NCBI GenBank assembly: GCA_001630475.1
Contig: KV419417.1
Location: forward strand, 322,174 to 386,173
DNA length: 64,000 nucleotides
Origin: Sistotremastrum niveocremeum HHB9708
Lineage: Eukaryota > Basidiomycota > Agaricomycetes > Sistotremastrales > Sistotremastraceae
Direction: 5' to 3'
The translations under genes were made by a program, and so were the position numbers. Below are positions 15,448 to 43,299 of this stretch, one piece after another; the first letter of the stretch is position 1; each line of letters starts with the position of its first letter. The notes below the pieces were generated by a model. That model saw nothing but the letters and a program-made list of their open reading frames with translations. It was not told the origin of the DNA and ran no database searches.

Positions 15448-15648
15448 GAGAATACATCACGCACGATACATGGAAACGGATCACATATTATTTGTAGGTA
15501 GCAATAGGTAATGAGTGGAAATGTTAGGTCACGGCCATGTCAGCCTGAGTGGATGTTAGCGGAGTTCTTACACTCTCCTTTCAAGTTGCTCGCCGCCACC
15601 ACCTCCAAATCCCACCACCGCGTCCGATCCACGAGAGTAAGGCAGTCA

Positions 15649-16866
15649 ATGACCCAAACCATTCCGATTGAGTTATATCGCCATATTGCAGAGTGGCTCA
15701 TCGAGGATTGTCCGAAAGGCGACCTAATCAATCTCTGTTGTGCCTCCGGCGCCTGGCAAGCCGAAGCAGAGCGTATCCTTTGGACCAACTGCTGTCTCAA
15801 TGTTAATCGCGAGGACCATGCATCGTATCAACGCATCCACACCCGATTCTCCACTTACATCAAGAACATAACAATATGGATATGGGACTCACCAGACTGG
15901 GTCCCCGCGTTTTCATCGACTGATCCGGACCTTATCACACTCCTGGAGGCCGTGAGCCATCAGTTGGAGAGGTTGACGATACACGCACGTACAAGTGCTG
16001 CTTCGGGCGTTACTCTGGATATCCTCGACTCATTCTCATTCCCGATGCTGGACATATTCCATTTCACAAGTTCACGGAGCTCTCATGCATGGCTCCCCGA
16101 TTCTCTCCCTGCCTTCTTCATACGTCATTCCATACGAGAGTTCGCACTGTATGATCAGGGTGCTCAGTTCATCATGGGCGCGCTGGATATCGAGGAGAGA
16201 CCGTTGGAGCATTTAGAGGTGTTGAGGACAACTGTCACTGGCGCTTTGGCTGCTGCTCCACTCATCCCCGATTTGAGGGAATTGATCATGGGACATCCAG
16301 CTGAAGACGTCTCAGAGTTCCTTCAAGGGGATGAGATGATGAATAAGCCTTACTTCCCGAAACTGAGGGTATTGCATCTTCCCGAGGACGCCGATAATCT
16401 AACTTCGAGGTTGATTGTGGATCCCGAATACTTGCCGTTGTTGGAAGAGGTATATAACTTCAAATGGGGGGACTTGTTTGTGAGCGCTACCTCGCGATCT
16501 TTATCACCTGCATTACTAATTCCTTTACAGTCCTCCTCTGAAGACGCAATCAAAGAGTTTCTCATTGTTCGGTTCACATTCCCACACCTCCGCGTTCTGA
16601 CCTCTCACATCGTCGCACGCAACCTCACCGAACGGTCAGCCTGCAAAATGGTTGCAGCCATCCGCTCAACATGTCCCCGGCTCGAAAATATCGAGTTGAC
16701 TTGCTCCGGCGACCCTCGCGTATGGGTTGAGGGAACCTATAATAATGCCGGCCAGCTTTGCATTAAGATACATCGGAGAAGAGGCCCAACACTCTCCACG
16801 CCCAGTGATCTTGAGTCTTTAGCTTATGCCGACGCGGACGAAACAGAAACTGGGTGGATATGGTAG
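15649..16866 (+). CDS. F-box protein, array member 1
   Basis: Exons 15649-16479 and 16531-16866 give 388 residues. The N-terminus is an F-box-like helix set: IPIELYRHIAEWLIEDCPKG, LINLCCAS and AWQAEAERILW. The rest is leucine-patterned (LEVLRTTVTGAL, LRVLHLPEDADN, LPLLEEVYNF, HLRVLTSHIVARNL, LENIELTCSGDP), as in basidiomycete F-box/LRR-like proteins. Such proteins usually recruit substrates to an SCF ubiquitin ligase through Skp1; the substrate is unknown. The intron (51 nt, GTGAGC to TTTACAG) is a multiple of three with no stop, so an unspliced reading would add 17 residues; the paralogues show that it is an intron. Start chosen at MTQTIPIELY by alignment with paralogues; the frame stays open 46 codons further upstream. 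Confidence 0.88.
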   Translation: MTQTIPIELYRHIAEWLIEDCPKGDLINLCCASGAWQAEAERILWTNCCLNVNREDHASYQRIHTRFSTYIKNITIWIWDSPDWVPAFSSTDPDLITLLEAVSHQLERLTIHARTSAASGVTLDILDSFSFPMLDIFHFTSSRSSHAWLPDSLPAFFIRHSIREFALYDQGAQFIMGALDIEERPLEHLEVLRTTVTGALAAAPLIPDLRELIMGHPAEDVSEFLQGDEMMNKPYFPKLRVLHLPEDADNLTSRLIVDPEYLPLLEEVYNFKWGDLFVSATSRSLSPALLIPLQSSSEDAIKEFLIVRFTFPHLRVLTSHIVARNLTERSACKMVAAIRSTCPRLENIELTCSGDPRVWVEGTYNNAGQLCIKIHRRRGPTLSTPSDLESLAYADADETETGWIW

Positions 16867-18700
16867 TGGGGTGAATATCGCCTTGCTTCGGCTGTAATGC
16901 ATGGCTCTGATTGTCACGATGGTCTGCACTCATGCCCCTTTGGGTCCAGATACTCCCAAACTGCGGTTCTGAGTGCTCTGGTGTCACCTTCACGCTGCCT
17001 GACTTGCATTCGCTGCGTCACATCGAGTTTCTTGTCAAGAGATGATGTCCCGGACTTCCCCATTCTATGTCCCGCCATTCGTGCAAGAACAACATCCGAT
17101 CGCGCCAGTTGTCCGATTCACAAAATAAGCCGCGCCCTGGCTATTCCTGGCCGTTTTCACGAATTCGCCCTCGCCAACCAAACATGTACAAATAACTTGC
17201 TTCCTGTTCGACTCCCTCATTCCGCTTCCACCGTCGTGAATCAGTGTAAAAATTTTTGTGGGCCGATCTCGTGATCATCTCGTCAACTGATCCTGATCGA
17301 TTTTCCAATACGTTCAACGAACCCAAAATATAGAGGAAGCGCGCACCCTGGGGGGTCCGCGAATGATCACGACTTCTTGCTCGCTCCGCGTTCCTCCTTT
17401 GTTGACACGGATGTCGAGATTGCCCGCCCTTGGCCTACAACGACCCTGGGCTCAGTCATCGAGGCGGCCGAACCTTTCCCTGCTCCAGCGATTGAGATAA
17501 TGGCTTGGAATCACTGTTGACCGAAGCCCCTGCATGCCATTTGAGTTCACAAGGGTTCACTACCATCACGTACCACATGCCGAGCTCAGTACATCTGGTT
17601 CCCTTGTTAAACATTCGGTGAGCTTGGGAACCTGCATAGACGCGTTTGATTCCGTACTCCCTTGCCCTGGAGGATCAACCACGCTCAACAGGGCCTACTG
17701 CAATCTCTTTCGGCGGTGGATAACATGCCAGTCGATAGGCGATGCATCGAGGCTGCAGCCTGCCCCTTGAGAAGAATCCTCCAGCCCTTGAAGATATGGG
17801 CCCAATCCGAATGCTACTCTATGCACCGGCGTGAATTCTTCAGTGCTGATTTTCGATATCTTGGCTCTGGCGATCTGCCATACAGCGAAATTGACTTCGA
17901 ATCATTGAGATCAACAAAATCACTCAGCCAAGTCCACTTAACGGGCTGAGTCCATAATAGTCTCTGCTTGCTGTCGGGAGCCAAACAGCATATCTTGCAA
18001 AATCAATCATCCGGTTTTGGCTCGTGTGTACTAATCCGCTCTTTTTATATTGCCGAGCTGCTCCGTCAATTGTGATCGGCACGATTTGGCTCAGAAGCTT
18101 AAAATATCGGGACGCTTCGGAGGCGGCTTGATGCTAGGAACAAGGGCGCTCGAACCTTGCAACTTCTGCTGTCCCTTCTTCGAAGCCGAGTGTAGCGCCA
18201 CTAAAGCCTACGGCTCTCTCTCAGTACCTGATTTGACCTGCAGATAACAGTTGTTGACAACGGCACCTCGTTGTCGTATTTTGAGTCATGGCCCTCGTAA
18301 CGATCATGTTATGCATACCCCCAGAGTCGGGCCGCAACGAGTGGCGAGCACGCTAACGATGCTTCTGAGACTCTTGCTGTTGAACTGAGACCTCGAATTG
18401 CAGTGATATCCCTACCGGTACTGGGTGGGACTGAGAGTGTGCTTGGGACCTGGTGATCCGACCGCACCCGATTCTTGTGAAGTCCCTTGTTTTCCAATTA
18501 TAGATCAATTCACTGGTTCTGCGATGTCGCAATCCTGTTTGCCGCGACATAGTTCTGATCCCCTTGCGAGGTCTTGAAGTCGCATGCTGCAACTATAGAC
18601 CCTAGAACTAGAACAAGAACGTGTCTGAACTTCTGAAGTCCTCGATACGTTTCTAACGCGCACACATCTTCGCTCCCACCGTCTGTGGAGAGTCTTAGCC
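16867..18700. other. Intergenic 1.8 kb, no gene seen
   Basis: No reading frame longer than ~125 codons and none with recognisable domains. No F-box relic was spotted. It separates the first F-box gene from the laccase and includes the laccase upstream region. Confidence 0.45.
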
Positions 18701-18707
18701 TATATAG
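18701..18707 (+). promoter_or_regulatory. TATA box of laccase gene
   Basis: TATATAG lies 63 bp upstream of the laccase ATG, a normal distance for a fungal TATA-driven inducible gene. Confidence 0.5.
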
Positions 18708-18763
18708 TCAGCTAGCCATTTCGCCGTTTCTCCTGTTGATTTGTCGTGTAACGATTTTCCTCG

Positions 18764-21240
18764 ATGCACGTTTCGCTTCGATCATTGGTGGCCTCATTGC
18801 CACTCGGGATTTCTCTACTTCGTTTTTTGGGGGTGGATAATCCAACCTCACAACTCCCGCTGCAAGACATAGCGATCATCGAGAAGCCTCAGGACCCACA
18901 CGTCGCTGGCACCCGCTCTTATGTACTTCGCTTTGGCACCGGCATTGCCGCTCCGGATGGTTATCAAAGAAAGTATGCCACTATTCTAAGAAGCGACCCA
19001 TCTCTGGATGACAATGCGACCTTAGAGTCATCACTATCAATGAAAATTATGGGGGACCTTTGCTCTTCGGGAACAAGAGCGACCGATTTAATATTGCTGT
19101 TGGGAACAAACTCTATGATCGAGATGTCTTCCAGAGTACCTCAGTGGTATGTCTCTATGCACCCATAGAACATCCCCATTGCTTATTTGCGAAGCACTGG
19201 CATGGAATAAACCAGTTTTTGACTAATGCCGAAGACGGTGTGGGGTGGGTCACGCAGTGTATGTTGCGGCTCTGATTGTCATGGAATCGTCTGTTGACTT
19301 GCGCTTTATACCCTCCAGGTCCAATAGTTCCCGGCTTGTTTTTTGAGTACTATTTTCCGACAAACGGTCAGACCGGGTAAGGCCTATCCCTATACAGGAG
19401 CCCTGACTTGTCTCAACCTATATCGTACTTGAAGAACGTATTGGTGGCATAGCCACGTCTCGACTCAATACTGCGATGGTTTGCGCGGTCCACTCGTGAT
19501 ATATGATCCACAAGACCCCTTCCTCGGCATGTATAACTACGACAATGGTTTGCATCATCTCATATACATCGGTCAATATTAAATCCAATTCTCAACAGAG
19601 ACGACTATTATCACATTGGAGGATTGGCATCATACCCCTGCTCTCGCCAGTTTTAATGGGACTACGCTGTTTCCGTAAGTCCCTTTGACTTCTCTGTTCT
19701 CAATCCCATCATGGCATATTCTATAGAAATCCGGATTCTGTGCTCATCAATGGAAAAGGGAGGTATGCCAAACTTAACGATCCCAACTATCGGAAAAACA
19801 ACAAGTTGAGCGTCATCAACGTGCAACAAAATTCAACATACCGGTAGGTATTTTCGTAAGGAATGAAACCCTAGCACCTTCTGACCTCGAGACTAGGTTT
19901 CGCCTTATAAATATGTCCTGTCTCCTTTCATATAATGTCACCATCGACGGCCACAAGTTTTACGTCATCGAATCAGATGGCACAGCAACACGCCCAGTCC
20001 TGGTCGATTCACTTCAAATATACATCGGTCAACGATACTCCATCGTGGTGAAGGCAGATCAACCAGTCAACAACTATTGTCAGTGTCCTGGTTTCTTTAT
20101 ACTGTTACTTGTCAGCTCTGCTTCACAGGGTTCCGTGCAAACCCATCAAAGAACATTACCAACCAAAATCTTGTTGGTACGAGCTCGAACTTGTCTCGGG
20201 TCCCGGCTCCTTCTGATTGAAATACCAGACGATCCGGGACTAAACAATGCCATCTTCCGTTATCAGGGTGCACCTGACATAGAGCCACCTGCTAGCAAGA
20301 ACACAAGCACTAGACCTCTGAAAGAGTCGCAATTAGTGGTGAGACCCTCAGAGTGACCATCTTTGAACTCGACAATCTGCTTATCCTATTTCACAATAGC
20401 CCTATAATGCCCCGGGTGCGGAGTACTGCCGCTACGTCCGCCCGGAGAATAATATCACGTTGGACATTGGTTTGATCACAAACCCTGATGTGAGTTGAAT
20501 AAGTTTTCATCAGAACTGTGCTATTTGTGATACTGAGCGAAATTCGAAAGAAAACTCGGGAGTGGACAATTAACAACGCATCTTTCACCCCACCGCCTCT
20601 CCCAGTCCTGCTGCAGATACTCCGTGGAACGAGGAACGCCCAGGATTTCCTCCCTAAAGGCGTGGTATATACCCTTCCAATGAATACAGCAATTCGAGTT
20701 AATATTCCTGATACCAATGGCATATTCGATGCGCATCCATTCCATTTACACGGGGTATGTTACTCATCGGAATCTTTGCTGTCAATATCCGTACATCTTG
20801 GAATTGACTTTATTGATCAGCACAGTTTCGATCTTATTCGGCCAGCCGGCGAGTACGTGGAGAATTATTCTGACCCACCTAGGCGCGACGTACGTCCATT
20901 TTCTACATGGAACAATACACGAACTGATTGTCAGTGCTGCAATTCAGGTGGTCGCTGTCAGTGATGGTGGCCCGGATGGTAAGGATGGTCCGTCGGGAGT
21001 CAGCTTCTGTTTCCAGACGGACAATGTCGGACCGTGGATTCTGCATTGGCGAGTCTTGGCCTTCTCTTCATCCTCATAAATAGCTGACACGGCATCTATA
21101 GCCACATCGACTGGCATCTCAGTCAAGGATTGGCGGTAGTGTTTGCAGAAGCGCCATACGATATTGGCAGAGTCAGACCGCGACCCGATCTGGAGGCAGT
21201 TTGCAAAGCATTCAATGAATCCGGATTACCTCCCTCATGA
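18764..21240 (+). CDS. Laccase (multicopper oxidase)
   Basis: Fifteen exons join in phase to 566 residues: 18764-18972, 19026-19146, 19195-19258, 19319-19376, 19435-19547, 19599-19674, 19727-19843, 19897-20078, 20129-20176, 20229-20338, 20400-20489, 20551-20754, 20821-20889, 20948-21048, 21102-21240. All four copper signatures are complete: HWHG followed by VTQCPI (L1), [17 protein letters not shown] (L2), HPFHLHGHSF (L3) and [18 protein letters not shown] (L4), so all ten His and the type-1 Cys ligand are present. The axial position is Leu. Laccases oxidise phenols with O2 and are usually secreted; the N-terminus has a hydrophobic stretch ([16 protein letters not shown]) but is ~45 residues longer than usual before the first cupredoxin strand, so the start may be further downstream. 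The last intron uses a GC donor. It stands between F-box genes with no partner laccase. Confidence 0.93.
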
Positions 21241-21570
21241 CGTGCCGGCCCACTCTGGTACTCTTGATAGTCTTGTCGTTCTAGGCGTATGCAGCGCATT
21301 GTTTGATGTTGGGTCCTTATCGTGGAGAAATCAAATGAATGTATCTATGAGCACTACAGACCGATCGTCCGGTATAAACACTCGGAGGGTGGCACCAATC
21401 TGCCATTTGTGTCGTGGATGGAGGTTGATGGACAACTAGACCTGATCAGCAGCTAGCACAGGGTCTATTCACAGCTAAGCCGGGTATGCAAACCCCTCAC
21501 AGGGGAGTCAGTCACGCACCTCCTGCTCACATAGTCACACGAGTCCCTGGGATGATTCCATGGTAAAATT
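21241..21570. other. Intergenic between convergent laccase and F-box gene
   Basis: 330 bp between two 3' ends. Nothing recognised. Confidence 0.5.
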
Positions 21571-22802
21571 TTAATGTGCTCTCATCCGTTTGCTCCAATT
21601 CAGCCCGCCCAGCCCACCATCAACGTCGACAAGCAGATTTCTCCGCCTATGGACCACCCATTCCAGCAGCCCATCTCGATTCCGAGTCCCTGAAACCCAC
21701 GCAAAAAATTCTCCAGTGCACTGGATTTCAGCATATTCAAGTCTCGGACATGCCTGTTCAATGCTTTCCTTAATTGCACGGGAATGCGATGAATCGAGTG
21801 ATCGAGAGCCGATAAAGGCAGTCAAAATGCGTAGATGGGGAAACCCAAAAAAGGAAGTGATATTCTGTGAAAGGGTTGTATCCTGGCAATTTATGAAGTT
21901 TAGAACAGTCGTATGATCGAAATTATACAGGTATGCACCATTTCTGAGCCGAATCGATAGTTGTACAACTCTTCGACGAGAGGAATGGAATCAAGGTTTG
22001 CGATGAGCCGTGACGTGCGATCCTCTCCACCCAATGGAAGATATAGAACCTTCAAGTTTGGGGCCCAAGAGGGTCCCAATGGAGCGATGGGAACAGCAAG
22101 GCGAAAATCGGTTTGCACGATCAGTTCCCGGACCTGAGGGAGGTGTGGTGAGAAATAGACTGCCTCAGCACCCGTTCTCAGCACCTCCAAGCCCTGCAAA
22201 ACGTTTGAATCCTCATGCAAGGCGCGGATAATATCATCCGTGTTTGAAGCATATAGAGTGAGTTCCTTGATCGAATGGCGTTTAAGGAAAGGCGGGAGCG
22301 TTTCACTAAGCCAAGGGCTGTCTCGATAAGAGTCAAATAACACATTGAATTGGGTCATTTTGGGGACGGAGAGGGTGCTGAGGATATCATCGATGGTGGC
22401 AAACGAAACGTTACCACGCGACAATATGGTCAGTTCTCGTATTCTCGGCCCTATTTCACGCAAGAAACCAGTCATCTCCAGACGGTAGTCTTTGTTCATC
22501 CGTGAAAGTTTATCCGACTCGTCTTCATCTTCATCCGAGTCAAATGTGTTCGTGTCATCCCTCCAGAGAAAGAAAAAGAGGCTTCTGATGTACTTCGCAA
22601 ATCTGTGCCGAACCAGAGGGAGAGGGACGATATCGGGACCTAATGGTAGGTGCAGTGAAAAGTCTCGCCAAAGGAAATGCTCTGCTTCAGCTTGCCATGC
22701 TGATGAGGTGCAGGATAAGTTGACAAGGTCGCCCTTCGCGTGGTCCACATAGAGCGAATGCGCGATATTACGATAGATTTCGAGGGGGATAGGGCGAGGC
22801 AT
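21571..22802 (-). CDS. F-box protein, array member 2
   Basis: Exons 22802-21939 and 21882-21571 give 391 residues. The start MPRPIPLEIYRNIAHSLY opens the same F-box as the other members, with DLVNLSCTSSAWQAEAEHFL. An extra acidic insert (DSDEDEDESDK) follows the first segment. The leucine-patterned body and the end PRLEYAEIQCTGEFFAWVSG match the paralogues, as does the position of the single phase-0 intron directly after the ELYNYRFGSEM block. It is the only member on the minus strand and is divergent from member 3 with 284 bp between starts. Likely SCF substrate adaptor by family; target unknown. Confidence 0.87.
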
Positions 22803-23086
22803 GCGTATAATGTGGTACCAATACAGCCTCTGGATCGATGATGAGACTCAATATATCGGAATGCACGGTCTGCTATCAGACAGCAGAGCTGCTTGGCTGG
22901 TTGAGGCGATGACGTTGTTGTCCACTGTTGACGCGCTGAGGGCTTTTGTTTGGCTAGACAAATAAACATACACAACTTTCCAGCGCTCGCCGCCATCCGC
23001 TATACTTAATGTACGTACGAGACGCCAAAGCCTCGACGCTCAACTGGTCCTTTCACTCAGCTATCTGATCTTGCCAAATATTCCAC
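22803..23086. promoter_or_regulatory. Divergent promoter region of F-box members 2 and 3
   Basis: 284 bp between the two start codons. No distinctive motif was found. Confidence 0.4.
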
Positions 23087-24174
23087 ATGCCTCCTCGCAA
23101 AGTGATTCGAGCCATACCAGTCACATTTCACCCAAACATCGCGCAATGGCTCGTCGTAGACTGTCCCAAACGGGACCTTGTTAGCTTGTCCTGCGCGTCG
23201 CGTGCGTGGCAAGTCCAAGCAGAGCAGATCTTGTGGACAGAATGCTCACTCGACATGCCGGCCTCACCAAACACGCCCAATCTTGACACTATAATCAGAA
23301 GGTTCAAGAAGCACATCGGAAATTTGACTATTTGGGTCAAAGAAAGTAACGACGGCCGAGGAAACGGTCGGCTGACGAAGAAAGAGGTGTTGTTTTTGAC
23401 AAATGTCAGCAGCCAAATTACGAGCTTGACATTGCAAATCCGCACCAAACGTCCTATTCCGGTTCCTCGCGAAATATTGGACAACTTCACCTATGAGAAT
23501 CTGGAGGTTTTCAATCTACCGCCTTCGCTGCCTCTCGCGGTGTCACAAACCTCGAGAAATTGATTATCGGGATGGATTTTGAGAAAGATGATACCGTCGT
23601 TCCTCCCGGTGGTTGGTTCATGGAACCGCTCGAGAATCTCAAAGTTCTGAGTTTGCCTGACAATGGTGACCCTGAGCTGTCAACTCTCATTGTCGAACCG
23701 GAAGCCTTCCCGGCACTGGAGGAATTATACAACATGCAGTTTGACAATCAATTCACGGTATATTCTTCTTCCCTTCTCTCTTGAGATAAGCCGGACTGAC
23801 ATGTCGATCGTTCCGCCCCTCAGACTCTTTCACGCAAAGAAATTGCGAAATTCCTCAAGCTGCGTTTGAAATTCCCAGCCCTTCGCGTCTTAAGAGCCTC
23901 AGTTCGTGCCCGCGTGCTGAGCGCCCACATTGCTCGAGAGATTATCACAGCAATGCGCGGTACGTGCCCCCGGCTCCAATACGTCGAGCTCACATGCTCT
24001 GGGGATCCTCTCTGCGCGGTCGAAGGCATTTATCAGAGTTTCGGCCGCCTCGACGTGACGGTTCATAGAAGGAGAGGTCTTCAACTCTCTTCTCCTGTAG
24101 ATCTGGAGGCTATGGCGATCACAGTGTATGACGCGCCGGATTCGGATTCTGGTGAAGATTTTGGGTATGACTAG
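23087..24174 (+). pseudogene. F-box protein, array member 3, broken
   Basis: The first ~145 codons are a normal F-box start (IPVTFHPNIAQWLVVDCPKR, LVSLSCASRAWQVQAEQILW). At about 23515-23520 the sequence jumps from the segment LEVFNL straight into the paralogue block equivalent to TTAAGALVAVPHVPNL, in a different frame. Compared with member 5, some 65-80 codons are missing there. The second part (NLEKLIIGMDFEK onward, then an intron at 23758-23822 and a C-terminus ending DSGEDFGYD) remains open in its own frame. A single internal deletion therefore explains the break, and the 158-codon frame ending at 23563 would encode only the F-box part. A truncated protein made of the F-box alone cannot be excluded. 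Confidence 0.75.
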
Positions 24175-24572
24175 GTACTGTTCCGTTCTCGTTCCTTTGT
24201 CTGACGCCTCATTGAACCTTACTAGTTACGAGCACGTCCAGCGTCTCACGATGTCGGGCGACATTTGACGGGGTTTCTTTCGAAACTCGAGACATTATTC
24301 GTCCAATTTCTTGACGGTTCAGCCTTGAAATGAGTTTATAGTTGATTTGAATATATTTCTTGACAGAACGCGTAAATTGACGCGTTTCTTGCCTTAGCCT
24401 AACCTGGATGGTGCTGGTAGCATTTTGAAAGTCGCGTAGATAGAGACGGTAAAAAACTCAAGAAATATGCTAGCGCTGCTTCGGCTAGTTTTGGCCGTGT
24501 TCAAATCTTTTCCTTGAACCTTCCGCTCAGCAACACTATTAGTCTTGTTCAAGCAATCCAGGGCCAAGGCTG
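24175..24572. other. Intergenic, F-box members 3 and 4
   Basis: 398 bp. AT-rich; contains the word TTTCTTGAC twice near a short inverted AACGCGT/ACGCGTT pair (~24370). No gene seen. Confidence 0.4.
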
Positions 24573-25811
24573 ATGCATGGTCCTATACCTCCTGAGCTAT
24601 TCAGGCTCGTTACCACGTTTCTCGCGGACGATTGCTCGAAACGGGACCTTGTGAGCCTCTCATGCGTCTGCTCTGCATGGCAAGCAGAAGCAGAGCGCGT
24701 CCTTTGGGAATCAGGCTCATTTGAAATACCTTGTCTAACACTCGACGGCGCAGATTTTCGCGCATTCGAGGCTCTTTGCAAGAAATCCAAATACATCAAA
24801 CATGTATTGGTGCGAGTTTTGGACGAGGCCAACGACGACGACGACGACGTACACGTGACAATGGCGCTGGAGTTTTTGGAGAAAGTGAAGGATCAGCTTG
24901 ATGCCTTGACTTTCCACATCCCAGGGAGACAGTCACCGGACTTAGTGTGCAGGATCCTCGACTCCTGGACTTTCAGTCACTTGCACCAGCTGCAAATAAT
25001 CTGTCGTCCGGAAGGATGTACGTCTGATGAATATGCTGAAGAGCTCTGCTCTTTCATATCACGCCACGAGATCTATGACTTCGGGCTCTTTGACACAGAA
25101 AGCGCATCCACTATGGAGATGTTGGCTGAGGATGACGACTTCGTCACCGACCTCGCGGTCTTGAGGACAACCGTGGCAGCAGCGTTTCAGATTTTACCCT
25201 TCACTCCCAACCTCGAGCAACTGTCCATCGAGAGGTCTTGGGACGAAGAAGCGGAGGTTCCAGAAGGGTTGGTTATGCCCCCACTGGCACTTGATAGCCT
25301 CCGAGTGCTCTGTTTGCCGGACGATAACAGAGCAGCTCTTTCAGACGTGTTGATTCGTCCCGAAAGTTTACCAAACCTCGAGGAAGTTTACAACTGGCGG
25401 TTGACAAGACGACTCGGAGTACGCTGCTTCACTTTTACTCAGTTAACACTTAACAGACTGACAATGAGCATACAGAACAAGCCACATTCCGCACTCGACG
25501 CTTATCTCAAGGATCGTTTTAACTTCCCCTCACTCAAAATTCTTACCGGGTGCGTTCTAGCCCGCGGGATAAGCGCGGACCACGTACGCGGCATCCTCGA
25601 GGCTATTAAACGGCGATGCCCGACTCTCGAAAGCATAGAGCTGACGTGGTCTGGCGATCCTTCGTCTTGGGTCGAGGGAGCATACGACGAAAATGGTCAA
25701 TTCAAGACGACCGTTCATGAAAGAAGAGGCCCGCCCTTCCTTCTGGCTGGGGCAGTCAACAGAATATATGACGAAACGGGAGACGAAAGCGAGTACGATT
25801 CGGATCAATGA
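24573..25811 (+). CDS. F-box protein, array member 4
   Basis: Exons 24573-25418 and 25476-25811 give 393 residues; exon 2 is exactly the same length (336 nt) as in member 1. F-box at residues ~3-50 (GPIPPELFRLVTTFL, LVSLSCVCSAWQAEAERVLW), then a leucine-patterned body with an Asp run (NDDDDDV) and a C-terminus LESIELTWSGDPSSWVEG followed by an acidic tail. The 57 nt intron is stop-free and a multiple of three, as in member 1, so unspliced mRNA would also be readable. Likely Skp1-binding adaptor of unknown target. It is about as diverged from members 1 and 5 as they are from each other, judged by eye. Confidence 0.87.
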   Translation: MHGPIPPELFRLVTTFLADDCSKRDLVSLSCVCSAWQAEAERVLWESGSFEIPCLTLDGADFRAFEALCKKSKYIKHVLVRVLDEANDDDDDVHVTMALEFLEKVKDQLDALTFHIPGRQSPDLVCRILDSWTFSHLHQLQIICRPEGCTSDEYAEELCSFISRHEIYDFGLFDTESASTMEMLAEDDDFVTDLAVLRTTVAAAFQILPFTPNLEQLSIERSWDEEAEVPEGLVMPPLALDSLRVLCLPDDNRAALSDVLIRPESLPNLEEVYNWRLTRRLGVRCFTFTQLTLNRLTMSIQNKPHSALDAYLKDRFNFPSLKILTGCVLARGISADHVRGILEAIKRRCPTLESIELTWSGDPSSWVEGAYDENGQFKTTVHERRGPPFLLAGAVNRIYDETGDESEYDSDQ

Positions 25812-26605
25812 TTCGCACCATCAGGATCCCCAATTTTTTCAAGTTTTATGGTACAATTTCTCTGGTCCCTACGATAATGCTATGGCTGAATTTGATGAGG
25901 CACAGGCTTCAATTGACCTCTGCGATGTATATACAGATTCACGTAGGTTTGGGAGATCCTGAACAGTGAAAACTCGAAAGCTAACATCAGACCTCACAGT
26001 ATCTTTTATTGGACAACAATTCCGCTGCCCCCCAATCTGGTCTTACTGTTCGACCGGTGCCTTGTGGCTATCATGTACTCGGTACGCCTTGTACCGAGTA
26101 CATTCAACTCTTTGTTGTCTACCGACTGCTTCAAAGGGACGAGACCAATTAGTTGGAGCGAGACAACCTACAGCCGAACCTGACCTCGACTTATCCTCGA
26201 GGCTTTCAGAATTTCTCTCAGTGAACGCTTTACGAGGTGCTGTCCGCGCTGAAGAGATTGGTTTCTGCAACCTGACTGCAAGTCAATCTTGGAATATTAA
26301 TGTTTGGGTTTGTTCCGATTTTGAGAGAGATCAAGTGACTTAAGTCGCGTCTTCGGTGGAAAAGTTGAGGCCAAAGCCATCAGTAAATAGGAAATATACC
26401 CCTTCCATTATCAGTGTAGCAGTTGATATTTGCTAGCTGAGTATCAGATCCCGGTGGTAACTTGACCATTGCGGTAGAGGTCCCGATTGCCGATATCGCT
26501 CAAGCCGCCTGTTGAACGGCGCCATCTGGGTCGTCCTCGTCCCCCATCCCCCCTTGTCCATCTTTCGGTCCATTCGAGTTTCAAATCTTGCTGAGATAAC
26601 GTTGG
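25812..26605. other. Intergenic, F-box members 4 and 5
   Basis: 794 bp without a convincing gene. It contains the palindrome listed separately and the promoter of member 5. Confidence 0.45.
26073..26103. repeat. Perfect 13 bp-arm palindrome with 5 nt loop
   Basis: Arms 26073-26085 and 26091-26103 are exact reverse complements (ATGTACTCGGTAC and its complement) around the spacer GCCTT. It would form a strong hairpin in RNA or a dyad protein-binding site in DNA. It lies ~500 bp upstream of F-box member 5 and ~265 bp downstream of member 4. Confidence 0.8.
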
Positions 26606-27845
26606 ATGTCTCACACCATTCCCATCGAGCTCTACCGAAACATTGCGGACTGCCTCAGTGAAGACTCTCGGAACCGCGATCTCATCAGCCTGGCATGTGC
26701 CTCACGAACATGGCAAACTGAAGCCGAACGCATCCTCTGGACCAACTGCCAGATTGATATTCCAGACCATATTCATGCTCGCGATTTGGACGTCATTTTC
26801 GAAAGATTCGAACCCCACATCGAGAACCTCACGATATACGTTTGGGATTCCAATGGAGACATCGGGGATGGAAGATTGGACGACATGCAGATTGCATTCT
26901 TGCAGGACTTGAGTCCTCGGATAAAGAGGCTGACGGTCCATATCAGGACAGCTCTTCCTTGTGCTATCCCAAGGGAACTTTTCGAACTCACTATCTTTGA
27001 TTTTGCTGTACTGGAGACCTTCCAGATGACCGGTTCTCCTCGAGGAAACGAATTTGGATTTTACAGGGCTATCCCCGCTTTCCTGAACCGCCATCCAGTC
27101 AAAGAGCTGGCTTTATACGATCAGGAGGGCGAAGAGGTGTTGGGGTCATTCGAAGACGATGGACCAGAGTTCGCTCGGAAATTAGAGGTGTTGCGGACTA
27201 CCGCCGCAGGTGCTCTTGTTGCTGTCCCACACGTTCCTAATCTACAGAAGTTGGTCGTCGGCATGCATTCTGAGGATATCAGCGGGGATACAACGGGGAC
27301 TTGGCTCATGTCACCCCTTGACAAGTTGCGAGTGCTTTGTCTGCCTGAAGAAGGCGATGAACGTCTGGCGAGAAATTTCGCAGATCCTGAGTGCCTCCCA
27401 CAACTGGAAGAGCTGCACAACATGCGCTTCGGGGAACTGTTCTGGGTACGTTGTTCCTTTTTTGTTCAAGGAAGGGGATATTGATGGACGGTCATGATGA
27501 CAGGTGGAATCTCAGCAAAGGATTACACAATATCTTCAAACCCGCTTCTCCTTCCCTTTACTCCGGATCCTGACCACTTCCCTCGTCGCCCGCTCCCTGA
27601 GCGCATATGACGCCCGCCTAGTCTTCACCGCGATTCGAGCCTCGTGCCCAAACCTCCAATACCTCGAACTCACATCCACTGGGGATAGGTTCTGCTGGGC
27701 AGAAGCAACTTTGAGGATTGATGGTGACCTGCATATCGTTCTCCATAAAACCCGAACACCGCCACTTTCGTCACCGATGGACCTCGAATGGGTGGCAAAC
27801 GAGGCGTTCAAAGAAGATGATGACGATGATATGGACATGATCTGA
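26606..27845 (+). CDS. F-box protein, array member 5
   Basis: Exons 26606-27445 and 27504-27845 give 393 residues. F-box: SHTIPIELYRNIADCLSED, LISLACASRTWQTEAERILW. The body includes LEVLRTTAAGALVAVPHVPN, LRVLCLPEEGDE and LPQLEELHNMRFG, then after the conserved-position intron LLRILTTSLVARSLSAYDA and LQYLELTSTGDRFCWAEA, ending in an acidic tail EDDDDDMDMI. Closest by eye to members 1 and 3. Its 58 nt intron contains an in-frame stop, unlike members 1 and 4. Confidence 0.88.
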
Positions 27846-28441: not shown

Positions 28442-30951
28442 ATGCACGAGAAGAACATCAATGACATTGATACCGAGAACAGACACGATGATGAAGTATT
28501 GAGAAGTCTGGGGATCAAACGAGAATTGAGGAAAGAGTTCACCAAGTTTTCTACTCTGAGTTTCGCCATGGGCATCCTTGGGTGGGCGCATCGCTTTGCT
28601 TTGACAACGATTGGCCAACATAGTGTGTTAGATGTTCAGCGAGCATAGCATCGACGTTCAATACCCCCATTTTGCTTGGTGGTCCGGGAAGTGCGGTTTA
28701 TGCATGGTTGCTTGGGTCCGTTGGATGTATGGCCATTGCTGCTTCTGTTGCCGGCGAGTTTCTCCTACATCGTATTGAGATAAATCCTCTTGACGCGAAA
28801 CGTCCTCCAGAGCTCGTATCAGCTTATCCAACGGTGAGTGCGAATATCTGACTCCCTATTCGGTCCCGATCAACAGGGTCCTAGGCGGGCGGCATCTATA
28901 CGTCCACTGGTTTCGTCGTTCCGCCCGAGTACAGGAGCAGTGTAACGTTCGTAACAGCATGGTAAAGACTGCATTCCGTATCCTCTATTGCCCCAAGCTG
29001 AGTGACAAATTGAAGGATGACCGTTGTCGGACAATTAGCCACTCCCTCCTCGGTTAACTTCGCGCTTGCTCAAATGATATTTGCTGCCGTGACCATTGCC
29101 ACGGATGGGACGTTCGTGGCATCGACCGGACAAATTCTTGGTCTTTACGTGGGACTGAATGTGGGTATCGGAATTGTGAACTCGTTGCCTACGAAGGCTT
29201 TACATCGAATTGCAACTTCTTACGGTAGGCGTCTTTTCCCCCCTATAACAGGAAGGTTATTGATGCGCCGGCCTAGTCGTGATTAATGTGCTTACTACTC
29301 TGGCTGTCATCATTGCCGTTCCTGCTGGAGGGGCTGGTAATCTTGCGAGCCATAAATTCGTGTGGGGATCGGTAAGGAACCAAGTCCCTCATCGGGTCGC
29401 CTGCTTTGCTGAAGGCACGCGTAAGATCATAGATAATTCTGGTTGGAATAGTCGAGGTTTTGCCTTTCTTCTCGGTTTGTTGAGCGTTCAATGGGTCATG
29501 GTGCGCGTCCTGTCCTCTGTCGGAATAACTTAAGCCAATGAGGTTACCTAGACCGATTACGATGGAGCTGCTCGTAGGTCATCTTCAGGTGGAGAATAGC
29601 TTTGAGCTAAGACGATGATCAGATCTTTCCGAAGAAGTCAAGAATGCAGCGATCACTACACCTGTTTCAATCGTCTCCGCCGTTTTCTTAACTGCTATCC
29701 TGGGATTCTTCGTCAATGTCTCCCTCTGTTATGGAATCAGGGATTTGAGTACCATGCCCGGTCCTACGGGACTCGCTTTCGCTCAAGTAAGACTTCACCG
29801 TCATGTCCCTGAGATTGAACTCGAAAGTAGTATGAGTAGATTCTGTGGGATAACCTCGGGAAGCGGGGTGCTCTCGCGTTATGGTCGTTTGTGATCATTC
29901 TGCAAACTATGACGGGTGCGACGTGTCAGTTGGCATGTATACGAAGTGCGTAGTTGCATCTTACCTTTGAAATGACATGGTTCATGTTTTCGCAGGCATC
30001 TATGCTATCTCTCGAGACGTATGATTTTCCGGATCTTCTGCTGGTAGTATTGATGTCCTTGACGCCTGGTAACAGAATGCGCTTCCCGACAAGAAGATAC
30101 TGTCTCGCGTATGGTCAAAAACGCAGACACCGGTGAACGCTGTCATATTTACCGTGATAATTTCTGCATTGTTCGGATTACTGTTCCTTGCGTCCATTGT
30201 CGCGGTAGGTCCACTCCCAGGCTTCTTGCTATATGGTACTGAGCGAACACCTAGATCAATGCGGTGTTCAGGTATATACTGGCTCTGACTCTGTCGAGTG
30301 GTCCTGACCTTTCTAAAGCATCACTGCTGTGGCTCTTGATATTTCATACATCGTATGTCATCGCGATAAATTCCACGCTCCTGCACTGAAGACAGTCAGA
30401 TTCCTGTAGTGTTTAAGTTGTTCATACATTACACGAATCGTCAAGACGTCAAGTTCAAGCCAGGACCTTTCAACATGGGCCGTTGGGGATACTTTGTCAA
30501 TATCTATGCACTCGCCTGGTAAGCTAGTTTCTCGACTCGCATAGGAAGAAACCACTCACCGCGTACAGGACGCTACTTGAAACAGGGTTTGTCACTCGAC
30601 ATTGCAGACTATCTTTGCTCAAAATTGATCCCGGATTTTCAGCGTCCTAATCATGCCACAAGTACGTCCCGTCACAGCAGACACGATGAACTACGCAGGA
30701 CCGATCATGGGAGGTGTTTGCGGTGTGTCGTGGTTGTGGTACAAGTTGTATTGGGTAAACTCGTCTTTCAGCCAAGATTTGACAGACGTTGACGAGTGTG
30801 ATAGCATCGGTTCTACACGGGTCCCGGTACGAAGTTGCTCAATACCGACGGTGGTGCGGACAGCTCGAGTGACGTCGACTCTAACGTGGAAGTCGTATCG
30901 ACCGCTGAAGAGGAGAAGGGCCGATTCGGAGAGAAAGATTCGAAGAATTAA
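28442..30951 (+). CDS. GABA/choline-type amino acid permease (APC family)
   Basis: About 18 exons join into one APC-superfamily transporter of the fungal GABA/choline permease group (TC 2.A.3.4). It starts EVLRSLGIKRELRKEFTKFS, then STFNTPILLGGPGSAVYAW, SAYPTAGGIYTSTGFVVPPE, WMTVVGQLATPSSVNFALAQ, MTDYDGAAHLSEEVKNAAI (family MTDYD...HISEEVxNA), CIRSIYAISRDNALP, WSKTQTPVNAV, ALDISYIIPV, FKPGPFNMGRWG and PVTADTMNYA. Some twelve hydrophobic segments are expected, with cytosolic ends. Micro-exons of 23 nt (29996-30018) and 17 nt (30255-30271) are needed. Intron 28754-28810 has a GC donor. The first exon junction near 28575 is the least certain. It imports GABA, polyamine- or amino-acid-like substrates; the exact substrate cannot be read. 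Confidence 0.9.
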
Positions 30952-33327: not shown

Positions 33328-36300
33328 CTATTGCAGATTCTCGGCTAGTTCCTCTGCAATTTTGACACCTTTGATGAGTCGGGCTAACTCATGGGGAGCA
33401 TCAATATATTTCTGAAATCAGGTACTCCAGTCAGAGAGCGTTGGGCGAGGGAGCCATCGGCACATACCTGTTCGGCCCATTCGAGAATTTGTTCCTTGAA
33501 TGCCAGAGCACGGTCGACTAGCGCCCTCTGCTTAGATTTCTTGTTTGCAGTGTGCTTCTTCTTGGCTTGTGTTGATGGTCTCTTTGTCTCTGTTACCTCT
33601 TTCATAGAAGCCGCGTATTCTTCATACAACAGCCGGTTCTCAGCCGCATTCTTGCACTCCTTAGTTGCATGATTGGTAGCGTCCATCATATTAGTAAAAG
33701 ACCTAGGGACAAGTCAGGCGACAAACGAGAATTTCTAAAGCAATAACGTACACTGGGCGCCCATCCTGTTGACATCCTACGGGACAAATATAGTTGTAAC
33801 GATTCTTCTTCTTTGTTGGAACCGTCATTTGGTCTTCATACGCGCGCCAAGGGTGATGCATACGGCTAAGAAAACATAAGGCAACACTGACGTCTGAGAA
33901 GGAAGCCACTCACCGCATGTGTTCTTTTAGCCCACTATAGCTTGGTTTGGTCGCATTGCATTTGTCACAGGTATAAACTGCCCTCCCCTGGTCATTCTAG
34001 GCCAGAAAGTCAATGAAGAGACGCAGGTAACGATATTCGCTCATACATGGGATAGGAATTTCGTTGAATTGGTCCACTCCAGATGAGGAGCAGCCAGCGC
34101 TTGTATATAATATATTTTGAACAGGACGGGGTCGATGTCGTAAATGTCGTCTTCGGCGGCGTCCAGGGCAGCGTTGGTCTCTGGATCAAGACCATCGTGG
34201 ATATCCGCGGCGAAGATTCCGGTATCGTCCTCTTCAATTTCCTGGCACAACTGGCGGTGGGGGTCCACCTTGCTGAGGAACAGGTTGCCCAAACTATTGT
34301 ACTCTTGAAGTGCTTCTTGCTCCTCGGTAAGATCTTCAGCGGAATCGGGTTCTTCTATACAAAGGTAATGTCACCATGTATTGACGTAGGCAGAGACGAG
34401 GTCATACCATTAGCAACTTTGCGTTTCGCAACGTCGCGAACAATCCCGGCAACATATGTGGAAGGGGCCGACATTTCGGCGATAGCGTCATCACGAGCAT
34501 CCATTGTGTGCAGTCGATCAGGCTTGATTTCGGCTTGTTGGTTGGCGACTTTCGTTTCTAACACACGTGTGGCTTGGCGTGTGAGATGCCTGCGAGTTTC
34601 CCTGGCAGTCTTCTCGGCGATATTGACTTCATCCTTTAACTAAACAGGATCAGGCTGTAAGCTGGCGGCTAGGCAAATGGTACTTACTTGGTTCATTGCT
34701 TCAACGGACCATTGTGGCACGTACTTCTGTGGATTGTTATAGATGATATTGAGTCGGCGAGTGTTGAACTCCTTCATGTCGGGTTTAGGCTTGACCATCA
34801 TCTTGATGCTCTCCCAAGCGACGTCCCGCCGATACAAAGCATCTTGCAGAGCCGGAGTTTTCTCGATTTCCTCTCGACGGGCAGGGCCGAGTTGCACTTT
34901 TCCGTTCACGGCCAAGCAATGATCTTCTTCGTGCTCGCCCTGGTCACATGCATCTTCAGGAGCTTCGTTGCGAGTGTTGGTCGGTTCTTGCAACCGCTTT
35001 TGGATCTCGTTGCGGCGAATGATCAGCTGGACGGCGGCGCGAGCTTTGTTCTCTTCTGCCATGATTTCCTAACGAACTTGTTAAATCTTCACAACGTGTT
35101 TGAGGCAGGGGCTCAACGTACCGCTGCCCGAGGATTCAATGGTGCCACTTCTCCAGTCCGCACCCCGACCGTATTATAATTCTCTGCTCCCTTTGAATAA
35201 AAGGTATCAAAAGTTCGGCTTTGGTTCATATGTGCAAGGAGAAACGCGCCGCTCTCTCGGGAGTCCAAGATCCCCATCTGAGTGTTATACGAATGAGTCT
35301 AACTGACCACAGAAGCCGCACAAGGAAACGTTACCTCGTTACCAAATCCGCGTCTGAATGCGGCGACACCAGCACGGGGCAGACCACAGTCCATAGCGCG
35401 CCGCGCAATGCTGGCAGACATTTGGGATGCGGACTGCGGACGCATTGGGAGAAGTATCTCCCGACCTCCAGAGCTGAACCGCGGCAATCTGGGCAAAGTT
35501 AGCACGATTAGATCTTCTAGATACAGAGCGTGAAGCTTACAGTGGTTCTTCAAGGCACTCGGGCCTTATGAGTATCTCCGTACTCTCGTCTGTCCAGAGT
35601 TCTTCGAGGGTCTGTATCTGCCGCGTGAGACGATGCTCGGTTTCACTTACTTGGATGACTTGCCTTATAATACAAAACACCTCGCCCCAAGAGATACTTC
35701 AATACGTATATGTTGGCATCAAATTGAACGTTGTGCGCCTTTTCAGGACTGATGAGAGCGAAAACTACTTGTTTCCCGTTACAATCGTTATACGCCTAGA
35801 TTGAATGTAAGAACTGTGCATGCGCATATAGTATCACAGAGTCATACCTTGAAATTGCGGATATCGAGAGCGCTTCTGAAGCACATACGTTTGAGGCGTG
35901 TTATCTTCAAGTGCTTGAGCTTGAAGAACTGCTCATATCATGAGCAAGCTAACAACCTGATACATCGTCGAACTGACCTTTTGCTCCTTCTCATAGTCCG
36001 GGTGGCTGGGGTTCAGCGAACCGGGACGCATGCCAGTGTACATGCAGATTGCGATACTGGCATCGACGGCGCTCACATGCAATGCCGTCGCTGGGGATCG
36101 AACCGCCTGTTGATGCCCATATTCGAACATGAGGGCTGCTTCCTGACGTCCAAACCACTGCACCGGGTTCCTACAGCGATCCAGATTGCGGGTTTTGATT
36201 ACTGCAGATAAATTAGCGTCGAATGGTACGGCAACACTGCAAGGTTGACTGGACGTACAAGAATGGACCTCCTTGTTCATCTTCGTATAGAGGCCTTTGG

Positions 36301-37148
36301 CCGTGAGAAGATGGGCTCCCACTTTATTACCATTGTCGTCGGTGGTAAAAAGGATTATGTTTCTTAACATCGTGATAAACCACCCTCTGAGAGTGATAGC
36401 CTTGACGTGTCTTTCTTCGGCAGATTTAGCTCCCCGGCCGGGAGTAGAGTCGGCCTGCAATGTCATCGTCAGATGATGACCGTCTCAGATGCGACGAGCT
36501 TACCTTGTAACGGAGGAAATGAATTGCAAGCCTATTGACCGTGTCTTGATGCCACGCAACTACAGACGCCTCCTCGTCGCTCAACCCCAACCGATAGCCC
36601 ACGAAAGCAACCCATGCTTGCAAGAGTTGCATTCGCTTCTTTTTGGTGACTGAGTTCTCGGTGTCTTTATATTCGGCGCATTCGTCGTCGAGTTTCTGGC
36701 AGTATTCTGCAGTTGTCATGCCGGAGGCGGCGGCGGCGGCGTTGAGGGTGGATCTCAACTTGCTGCCCTGGGCGCGCACTTTTTCTGGATCGATTTCACT
36801 TTCGACACCAGGACGTTCTTTCTGAAGGCTAGGCAGACGAGAGAATATGTCTGCGCTCAGAGCATATGGGGCTGAAGATTGGCCGGCGGTGGACGCGTTG
36901 GAAGGCGGGTTGGGTGGGTCGGTGGTGGGGTTCAGCCCAGGGAGTAGTGACGGATGATCCCCAGCATTGAGGAGGGGTTGGAGCTTGCCTTGAAACGTTC
37001 TGCTGGCAACGTGGGGAGCATACGAGGTGGATGAAGATGGATCATGGGCGGCAGAGCGCTGAGCGATGTCCGCGGCGGAATTGGCGGTCGCTGCGGACCG
37101 AAGTGCAGGGTCTGGCATGGCACGCGACGAAACTTGCCCGAAGGGCAT
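33328..37148 (-). CDS. Tyrosine recombinase with C-terminal zinc fingers (DUF3435-like)
   Basis: Many exons join without any stop into a protein of roughly 1000 residues. After a disordered Ala/Ser/Pro N-terminus comes a helical SAM-like part (MTTAEYCQKLDDECAEYK, LLQAWVAFVGYRLGLSDEEA). The catalytic domain then shows the tyrosine-recombinase positions: ICMYTGMRPGSL (Arg I), a beta region ending VVFALISPEKAHNVQFD, GVAAFRRGFGNE (box II xxRR), FLLAHMNQSRTFDTFY (His and the probable nucleophile Tyr). A linker with LNPRAAEIMAEENKARAA leads to a C2H2 finger (YTCDKCNATKPSYSGLKEHM then RMHH) and a second Cys/His cluster (YICPVGC ... NHATKEC). This order resembles DUF3435 proteins, the recombinases of fungal Cryptons and Starship captains. 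It should cut and rejoin DNA. A TATA box lies ~85 bp upstream of the chosen start MPFGQVSSRAM. Confidence 0.75.
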
Positions 37149-37238: not shown

Positions 37239-37434
37239 GGGCAACTTAGCGCTGGCATATACACCCTCCCGGTTTTTCTCCCCCGGTCTCTCTGTCCTTT
37301 TCTCGTCCGTTATGGATTTTATCGCTCGTAACGGGTTGACATTTGCGATGAATTACAGGAAACGAGTTACAGGCATATTTACGATTTTAAAGTCGGGTGA
37401 ATTGTGAATTACAATACGGCGAGAGACAAAAGTG

Positions 37435-38027
37435 TTAGTTGGCCTAAAAAACAAGGATGGAATCAGTAGGCAAGGCAAAATACGAAGACGCACGCCTGAT
37501 TCATCTTCGCTGATCATCATGGTATCGTCGTCCAGTTTTGGAAAACCAAATCTCTGTCCAGCAACGACCAATCTCTCCCTAGCGTCGAATAGCACTTGGC
37601 GAGATTGCGCACGGCTAGCTTCCAATGACAACAAGATGGTGGCCAAGGTCTCGAGCTCGGCTTCCGATAATGGCCTGTTTTGGATACGATCAAAACGGGG
37701 TGAGAAATAAAAGAAGATGGCGACTGACTGGGGTGCAAGCTCGGCAGAGTCTTTTTGGGCGGGAAGGGCTGCCGATTTCTCTTTCAGCGGTTGCCTTTTC
37801 GCGCCGGTGGCGGGTTGAGCTGTCCTGTTTTCTTTTCCTTTTCCTTTGCCGCGTGAACTTGAGGCTTTGGGGATGGGGGGAGCATCGAGGAGGACGACGT
37901 CGTCGTCTTCGTCGCTATGTACGGCACCGCCTGCTTTCTCATTCCGAACCGGTTCTCCATCTTTGCTGCCGTCCGAACTGTCGACGCGAGTGAGCCTTTT
38001 GCGTTTGTTCTGCGGTCTGCTGGGCAT
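37435..38027 (-). CDS. Small charged, probably nuclear protein, unrecognised
   Basis: Exons 38027-37729, 37674-37494 and 37443-37435 give 162 residues. The N-terminal half is basic/acidic low complexity (MPSRPQNKRKRLTRVDSSDG, then SSRGKGKGKEN) with likely nuclear localisation signals. The second half is a helical segment, LSEAELETLATILLSLEASR then SRQVLFDARERLVVAGQRFG, ending DTMMISEDESGAN. Both introns are in-frame and stop-free in part, so an unspliced frame of 271 codons exists, but the splice signals (GTCAGT/AACAG, GTGCGT/TTTTTTAG) are good. No family recognised. Confidence 0.6.
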
Positions 38028-38450
38028 GGCGACGACGACGGTGATGTTTTGAGACGGGGTCCAAGACGAAGACGAGCTTTTGAAGATGATGCGTTGTTTG
38101 GCGACGCAAATAGAGCTCGCACGTGACCACTTGACGTAGTACCGTACCGAGCACAGCGGGCCGAGCACAGAAATCCCGAGAAATGATAGTACTGAGAATA
38201 GGATGAAATTCTGTTCATTGAAATCAGCCTTTACTCACTGAGAATGTTTTGGGCAAACGGGCATAATCTCAATATATTCCCCGCAACGCCGCTTTTCACA
38301 GCATTTTCTGAAAAAGTTCTCCCTTCAAAACTTTGGTGATAAAGTGACCGAATCTCACAAAATTCCAACCATTTAGTTTTGTGAAACCTGTACAGGGGCC
38401 GCTGTGTCGATTCGATTCATGCAATCATTGAGATCGGAGATCGAAATGAC
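38028..38450. other. Intergenic, 423 bp
   Basis: Upstream region of the small charged protein and downstream region of the next minus-strand gene. No RNA gene or repeat found. Confidence 0.5.
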
Positions 38451-42780: not shown

Positions 42781-42928
42781 GAGGCGAGAGCAAAGAGGTA
42801 GCTGGCGAGCGGAGTTGGGCGAGGCCGCTTACGTGCTCCGGGAGCGTTGGTCGATGATCGGCGGGGTTGCCGAGATTAGCGCCGGACGAGGTACGGTACC
42901 TTGACTGAAATCGAGAGGGATGAGCTGA

Positions 42929-42996
42929 GGTATGAAACCTTGTGGCGGAGTGCAAAATTCCAAGGTATGAAACCTTGCAGCGGAGTATCAAAATGC
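42929..42996. repeat. Two-copy 34 bp tandem repeat
   Basis: Two adjacent units start AGGTATGAAACCTTG at 42929 and 42963, followed by YRGCGGAGTRYMAAAA-like sequence. Each unit holds a small inverted AAGGT/ACCTT-type pair. It is just upstream of the JmjC-like gene. Confidence 0.7.
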
Positions 42997-43242
42997 GAGA
43001 CGAAGGAGAGGGAGATTTTGCTGGGGGACGAGACGAAGGAGAAGGGCCTGGGGTCGCCAAGATTGACAGACGCGAGTCCGAGTCGGACTCGCAAACCGAC
43101 GTCGGCCGGCCCACGAAAAAGAGAAGGGCCGACGGGCGCCTATTGTCTCGGCAGAGGCGCGGCTTCGGGCCTATCGGACGCTCGTCCTCGACGTCGACGA
43201 CGTCGAGAGAGATAGGAACTGCGAGTGGGACTCGCTGACCAA

Positions 43243-43299
43243 CTAAAAAAATACAAAAATGCACCTCGCTTCGCTCGGCGCATTTTTGTATTTTTTTAG
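43243..43299. repeat. Perfect 20 bp-arm hairpin abutting tRNA 3' half
   Basis: Arms 43243-43262 and 43280-43299 (CTAAAAAAATACAAAAATGC and its exact complement) flank a 17 nt GC-rich loop containing CGCTTCGCTCG. On either strand an A/T run of seven ends the stem, resembling a Pol III stop or an intrinsic terminator. Confidence 0.85.

Follow-up and report, generated by a model that had tools for sequence, protein, structure and literature searches.

The stretch of DNA analysed here, 64,000 nucleotides (nt) of contig KV419417.1 from the basidiomycete Sistotremastrum niveocremeum HHB9708 (the window), carries on its minus strand a gene whose product combines a middle part resembling a tyrosine recombinase (YR) with zinc-binding motifs of the C2H2 type. 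Exons joined by their splice signals, by eye and then with a script check, give one frame from an ATG at 37148 to a TAG ending at 33328, with 3102 nt, 1033 amino acids (aa) and no internal stop. Thirteen of the 14 introns, each 46-57 nt long, are GT-AG and one is GC-AG. Codon scoring preferred the called frame in 14 of the 15 exons, the exception being the 81-nt exon 35928-35848. The reference for this scoring consisted of 24 open reading frames (ORFs) of the same genome chosen by length plus three ORFs of the window, and it probably includes transposon ORFs, which blurs the comparison. The GC content at third codon positions is 0.56 in the YR-like gene, against a low reference mean of 0.39. 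The gene is real and lies where the initial annotation, made from the sequence of this DNA, had placed it.

Behind a Pro/Ser/Ala-rich N-terminus, the protein has its YR-like domain at about aa 215-545; a linker of mildly acidic character joins this to the C-terminal zinc-binding motifs. The initial annotation had described an intact gene with an Arg-I box, a box II, a late His and the motif FDTFY in the right order and then a C2H2 finger, and both the splice model and direct reading bear this out: R339, the box-II Arg, H519 and Y530 follow one another along the protein, ahead of a C2H2 motif at 872-893 (C872-C875-H888-H893) and a second set, C-C-H-C, at 917-944. The Arg-I, Arg-II, late His/Trp and Tyr of the tyrosine recombinase superfamily are thus found in order and with its spacing. 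From R498 there are 21 residues to H519 and 32 to Y530 (22 and 33 if counted from R497), while a by-eye count in the phage YR alignment gives 23 and 32 for the same gaps in the P2 integrase. What the initial annotation had not mentioned is an Ala at the box-II His/Tyr position. By direct reading, the His (or Tyr) expected there of the superfamily is absent, and an Ala stands three residues ahead of either box-II Arg (Ala495-x-x-Arg498 or Ala494-x-x-Arg497).

Since the family searches described below gave no YR assignment, a profile was built from 17 phage tyrosine recombinases. With this profile, which did not contain the YR-like protein, the whole protein was scanned for boxes I, II and III and the Tyr together; the window sizes and the Tyr bonus of the scan were our choice. 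The best placement fell on the boxes of the initial annotation with a score of 12.3. This score was reached by 3 of 1000 shuffled sequences in a first run and by 15 of 3000 in a repeat, the shuffle mean being about -1.5. As the scanned protein is the one whose boxes prompted the scan, the shuffles gauge the match and not the selection of the gene from the 64-kb window. The match to the YR boxes appears to exceed chance, but modestly, and the 1033-aa protein is probably, although this is unproven, a very divergent YR by ancestry.

The gene is found only once in the genome. A search of the 34.7-Mb, 111-contig assembly with aa 173-1033 recovered only its own locus; 12 of 13 matches were the gene itself and the thirteenth had an E-value of 0.06, with only the best candidates scored (6 of 6). 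The flanks searched, 27.0-33.3 and 37.15-43.7 kb, gave self-matches only at an E-value of 1e-5, save a miniature inverted-repeat transposable element (MITE) and weak short similarities: a 57-bp self-inverted match (84%), short stretches on contigs C8 and C3 (74-76%), and two places 55-63 kb leftward on the same contig that resemble the left flank (66-78%). As these flanks match essentially themselves, the assembly holds neither another allele nor an empty site for them.

We favour, with moderate confidence, the reading that this is a resident, single-copy fungal gene of tyrosine-recombinase descent, whose product would bind DNA and whose catalysis would be weakened or lost. Its residence in the host is supported by the intact 15-exon frame, the frame-specific codon signal, the single locus and the ordinary host genes nearby. 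YR descent is suggested by box order and spacing recovered with a profile that lacked this protein, and domestication by precedent: the accessible part of PMC3212892 presents Gcr1/Cbf2 and DUF3504 genes as established Crypton-derived host genes without preserved catalytic residues. A degenerate YR active site would therefore have a known counterpart as an outcome of domestication in Gcr1, Cbf2/Ndc10 and the animal DUF3504 genes. Host use, which the initial annotation had also offered, is plausible and is the reading we prefer. Its view that a copy without interruptions points to recent activity loses weight given the Ala in box II, the single copy found and, to a lesser degree, the 14 introns.

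According to this model, the YR-like domain and the fingers would contact specific DNA, and the protein may act as a regulator or as a chromatin-associated protein. The protein retains both Arg, the late His and the Tyr, but the Ala in place of the box-II His/Tyr makes it probable that full strand exchange is impaired or gone. Y530 may still nick DNA inefficiently; the Ala in box II would speak against efficient strand exchange. A bolder version, which we consider rather unlikely, is that the gene represents an unmodelled fungal YR lineage beyond DUF3435 and Cryptons that acquired zinc fingers by fusion and that the host retained; its Ala-containing box II would then belong to a novel recombination chemistry or to a hitherto undescribed family of domesticated DNA-binding proteins.

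On the other hand, several observations weigh against descent from a recombinase or against its domestication. No profile library and no PDB sequence search recognised a YR in the protein. The hhalign comparison with the phage YR profile, run with a single-sequence query, was insignificant (probability 0.8% for the full protein and 1.3% for the core, which no fewer than 5 of 200 shuffles outscored), yet the top segment of the core was box I. Among 146 decoy ORFs, stop-to-stop frames of 150 aa or more taken from 200 kb of this genome, one also reaches 12.3 in the box scan. This decoy looks like a retrotransposon polyprotein, and the 12 of 408 pseudo-proteins that reach the score are consistent with that single ORF in 12 resamplings. 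With leave-one-out profiles, the phage YRs score 42-93, against 12 for the YR-like protein. No orthologue was found in the collections compared, all of them viral or prokaryote. Synonymous-codon agreement is low with the three housekeeping ORFs of the window, a small sample (r 0.11), and stands at r 0.51 with the length-picked ORFs. Finally, the Ala in box II alone does not prove a loss of activity.

The family searches behind these statements were broad. Pfam was searched with the full protein and with the core up to an E-value of 10, HMMER filters discarding most matches above about 0.1, and in neither case listed DUF3435 (PF11917), Phage_integrase (PF00589), NDC10_II or GCR1_C. Only six zinc-finger models matched the full protein, all below cut-off (best zf-C2H2, E-value 0.011), and five core and linker pieces had no Pfam match in the same range. 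Single exons and read-through frames gave two unrelated matches below cut-off, APD1-4_M (E-value 0.012) and zf-ChsH2 (E-value 1.2). PHROGs returned one weak match of unknown function (E-value 0.2), NCBIfam none for this protein, and PDB sequences one chance-level match to the 361-aa core (E-value 1.5). The predicted structure of one contiguous 159-aa piece had a pLDDT of 36. Viral contigs, queried with two motif patterns as well as with the core and the C-terminal half, yielded no relative, and none of 38 pattern stretches in prokaryote contigs could be confirmed as one. The sole viral match of the second motif pattern was rejected; its contig carries what we read as a terminase-like ORF. In the genome itself, a GxRPGSL-type DNA pattern had 40 matches, against 68 with a reversed control, and none of the eight matches inspected was box-I-like.

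The strongest alternative is that the gene encodes an ordinary fungal C2H2 protein, no recombinase at all, with a middle part that resembles YR boxes by chance. We judge this somewhat unlikely. It would explain why Pfam, PHROGs and NCBIfam give no YR-family match, why the hhalign probability is so low, why an unrelated ORF equals the box score and why the box-II His/Tyr is missing. It accounts less well for a scan whose top placement falls on all boxes with near-canonical spacing, at a score that few shuffles attain. Compared with phage and bacterial tyrosine recombinases (PF00589), box I, the late His and the Tyr are similarly spaced, whereas the YR-like protein lacks the box-II His and a PF00589 match and scores far lower than the phage set.

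The initial annotation had likened the architecture of the protein to that of DUF3435 proteins, said to include both Starship captains and Cryptons, and had proposed that a captain would place the edge of an element near 37.2 kb. Such a live or recently live Starship-like captain, with an element running from about 37.2 kb to lower coordinates and carrying permease-like, F-box-like and oxidase genes, is improbable. In its favour, the frame is intact, a YR-like middle with a C-terminal DNA-binding region is the layout of captains, the contig has further stretches resembling the left flank, and Starships are reported from the basidiomycete Tremella fuciformis in the accessible text of PMC13066641. 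Moreover, the Ala495-Tyr530 spacing of 35 equals that of Y381-Y416 in the captain HhpA, as numbered in the part of PMC12506042 available to us. However, the same portion of that source describes Y381 as required for transposition, with Y424 as its equivalent in Sanctuary, and the YR-like protein has an Ala there. DUF3435 membership found no support in the protein or core, and no DUF3435 was found in the six-frame genome at an E-value of 0.001, a search that also matched in no control genome. Its presumed inclusion of Cryptons is contradicted by PMC12134995, whose accessible text calls the YR domains of captains and Cryptons 'very distantly related'.

Nor does an element emerge from the flanks. 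Between the YR-like gene and the MITE lies a complete ORF on the minus strand (38027-37353), its start 0.9 kb upstream of the gene, and no terminal or direct repeat pair stood out by eye in a repeat search of 26-46 kb, so that the proposed edge near 37.2 kb gains no support. The upstream repeat was rejected as an element end, being a MITE with 3-bp duplications; these are readable by eye in 5 of 8 aligned copies and inexact at the window copy. The copies elsewhere, on contigs C13, C16, C28, C35, C37, C53 and C84, are 73-79% identical. Of the Starship accessory families (DUF3723, patatin-like, ferric reductase, NLR), the searches covered DUF3723 and patatin: DUF3723 had no match in the genome, though its search matched in no control either, and the 17 patatin matches all fall outside the window's contig (C24). 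Neither a second copy of the gene nor, for the flanks searched, an empty site turned up in this assembly. The captain interpretation is not supported.

A small Crypton-like element or remnant with little beyond this gene is very unlikely: CryptonF elements have been described in fungi, with Cryptococcus neoformans as the basidiomycete example, and their proteins carry GCR1_C after the YR (PMC3212892, in the text accessible to us), but here the protein has neither a GCR1_C nor an NDC10_II match and carries zinc-finger motifs instead, the genome has no GCR1_C match above cut-off (one at E-value 0.76), and no further gene copies were found.

Two other loci of the genome were considered as relatives of the YR-like gene and rejected. 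The frame at C43:125159-125332, another YR-type trace, has a canonical H-x-x-R, Trp and Tyr and a PF00589 match below cut-off (E-value 0.14); we take it to be a DIRS/Ngaro-type recombinase piece, and it was not retrieved with the YR-like protein. The sole NDC10_II match reported in the genome, at C8:667180-667452, lies barely above cut-off (26.9 bits) and gave at best an E-value of 3.1 with the YR-like protein.

Neighbouring genes were assigned with Pfam, run on a selection of 20 window ORFs. Rightward of the YR-like gene, ORFs without an assignment are followed by DCTN5, RAD54 and a TruB-type pseudouridine synthase, which are ordinary host genes; leftward lie an amino-acid-permease match and three F-box-like matches, all below cut-off, and a multicopper oxidase. 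The F-box-like ORFs belong to a locally expanded family of similar ORFs at 15508, 21900, 24543 and 26600 (window 15508-27845), of which the one at 15508 was placed by eye only and the other three have the Pfam matches. The permease-like region, 29628-30758, has diverged similar stretches about 55-63 kb leftward on the same contig. An inverted repeat with 23-nt arms, 96% complementary and 11 nt apart, lies at 43243-43299, and a 35-bp tandem duplication (77%) at 42928-42997. The coordinates of the main features are collected in Table 1.

Table 1. Features of the YR-like gene and its upstream flank (window positions)
Feature	Position	Strand	Basis
Spliced YR-like and C2H2 gene, 15 exons, 1033 aa	33328..37148	minus	Splice model with one open frame; codon scoring
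Sole GC-AG intron of the YR-like gene	35618..35663	minus	Splice model
Box I, YTGMRPGSL, with R339	36014..36040	minus	Direct reading; top hhalign segment of the core; box scan
Box II, VAAFRRG (A-A-F-R-R at 494-498), R497/R498; His/Tyr position is Ala	35347..35367	minus	Box scan; direct reading
H519 to putative nucleophile Y530, HMNQSRTFDTFY, including FDTFY	35197..35232	minus	Box scan; direct reading
C2H2 motif, aa 870-893, split by intron 33866-33913	33856..33975	minus	C-x2-C-x12-H-x4-H by direct reading; Pfam below cut-off
Upstream ORF, 224 aa, ATG and stop, spliced form possible	37353..38027	minus	No Pfam match at E-value 0.1
MITE, 255 bp, ends CACAGCGG/CCGCTGTG, 7 other copies found	38152..38406	.	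Flank search; copy alignment

No published description of the YR-like protein turned up in literature searches, which covered few subscription papers and not the key captain papers. The report of Starships in Tremella (PMC13066641) has drawn attention to captain-like genes of basidiomycetes. The gene resembles already-known domesticated transposon genes. If it does derive from a YR, it would be a candidate for a fungal recombinase that was domesticated, from beyond the families detected by the libraries searched, and a warning that captain status is not given by motif order alone.
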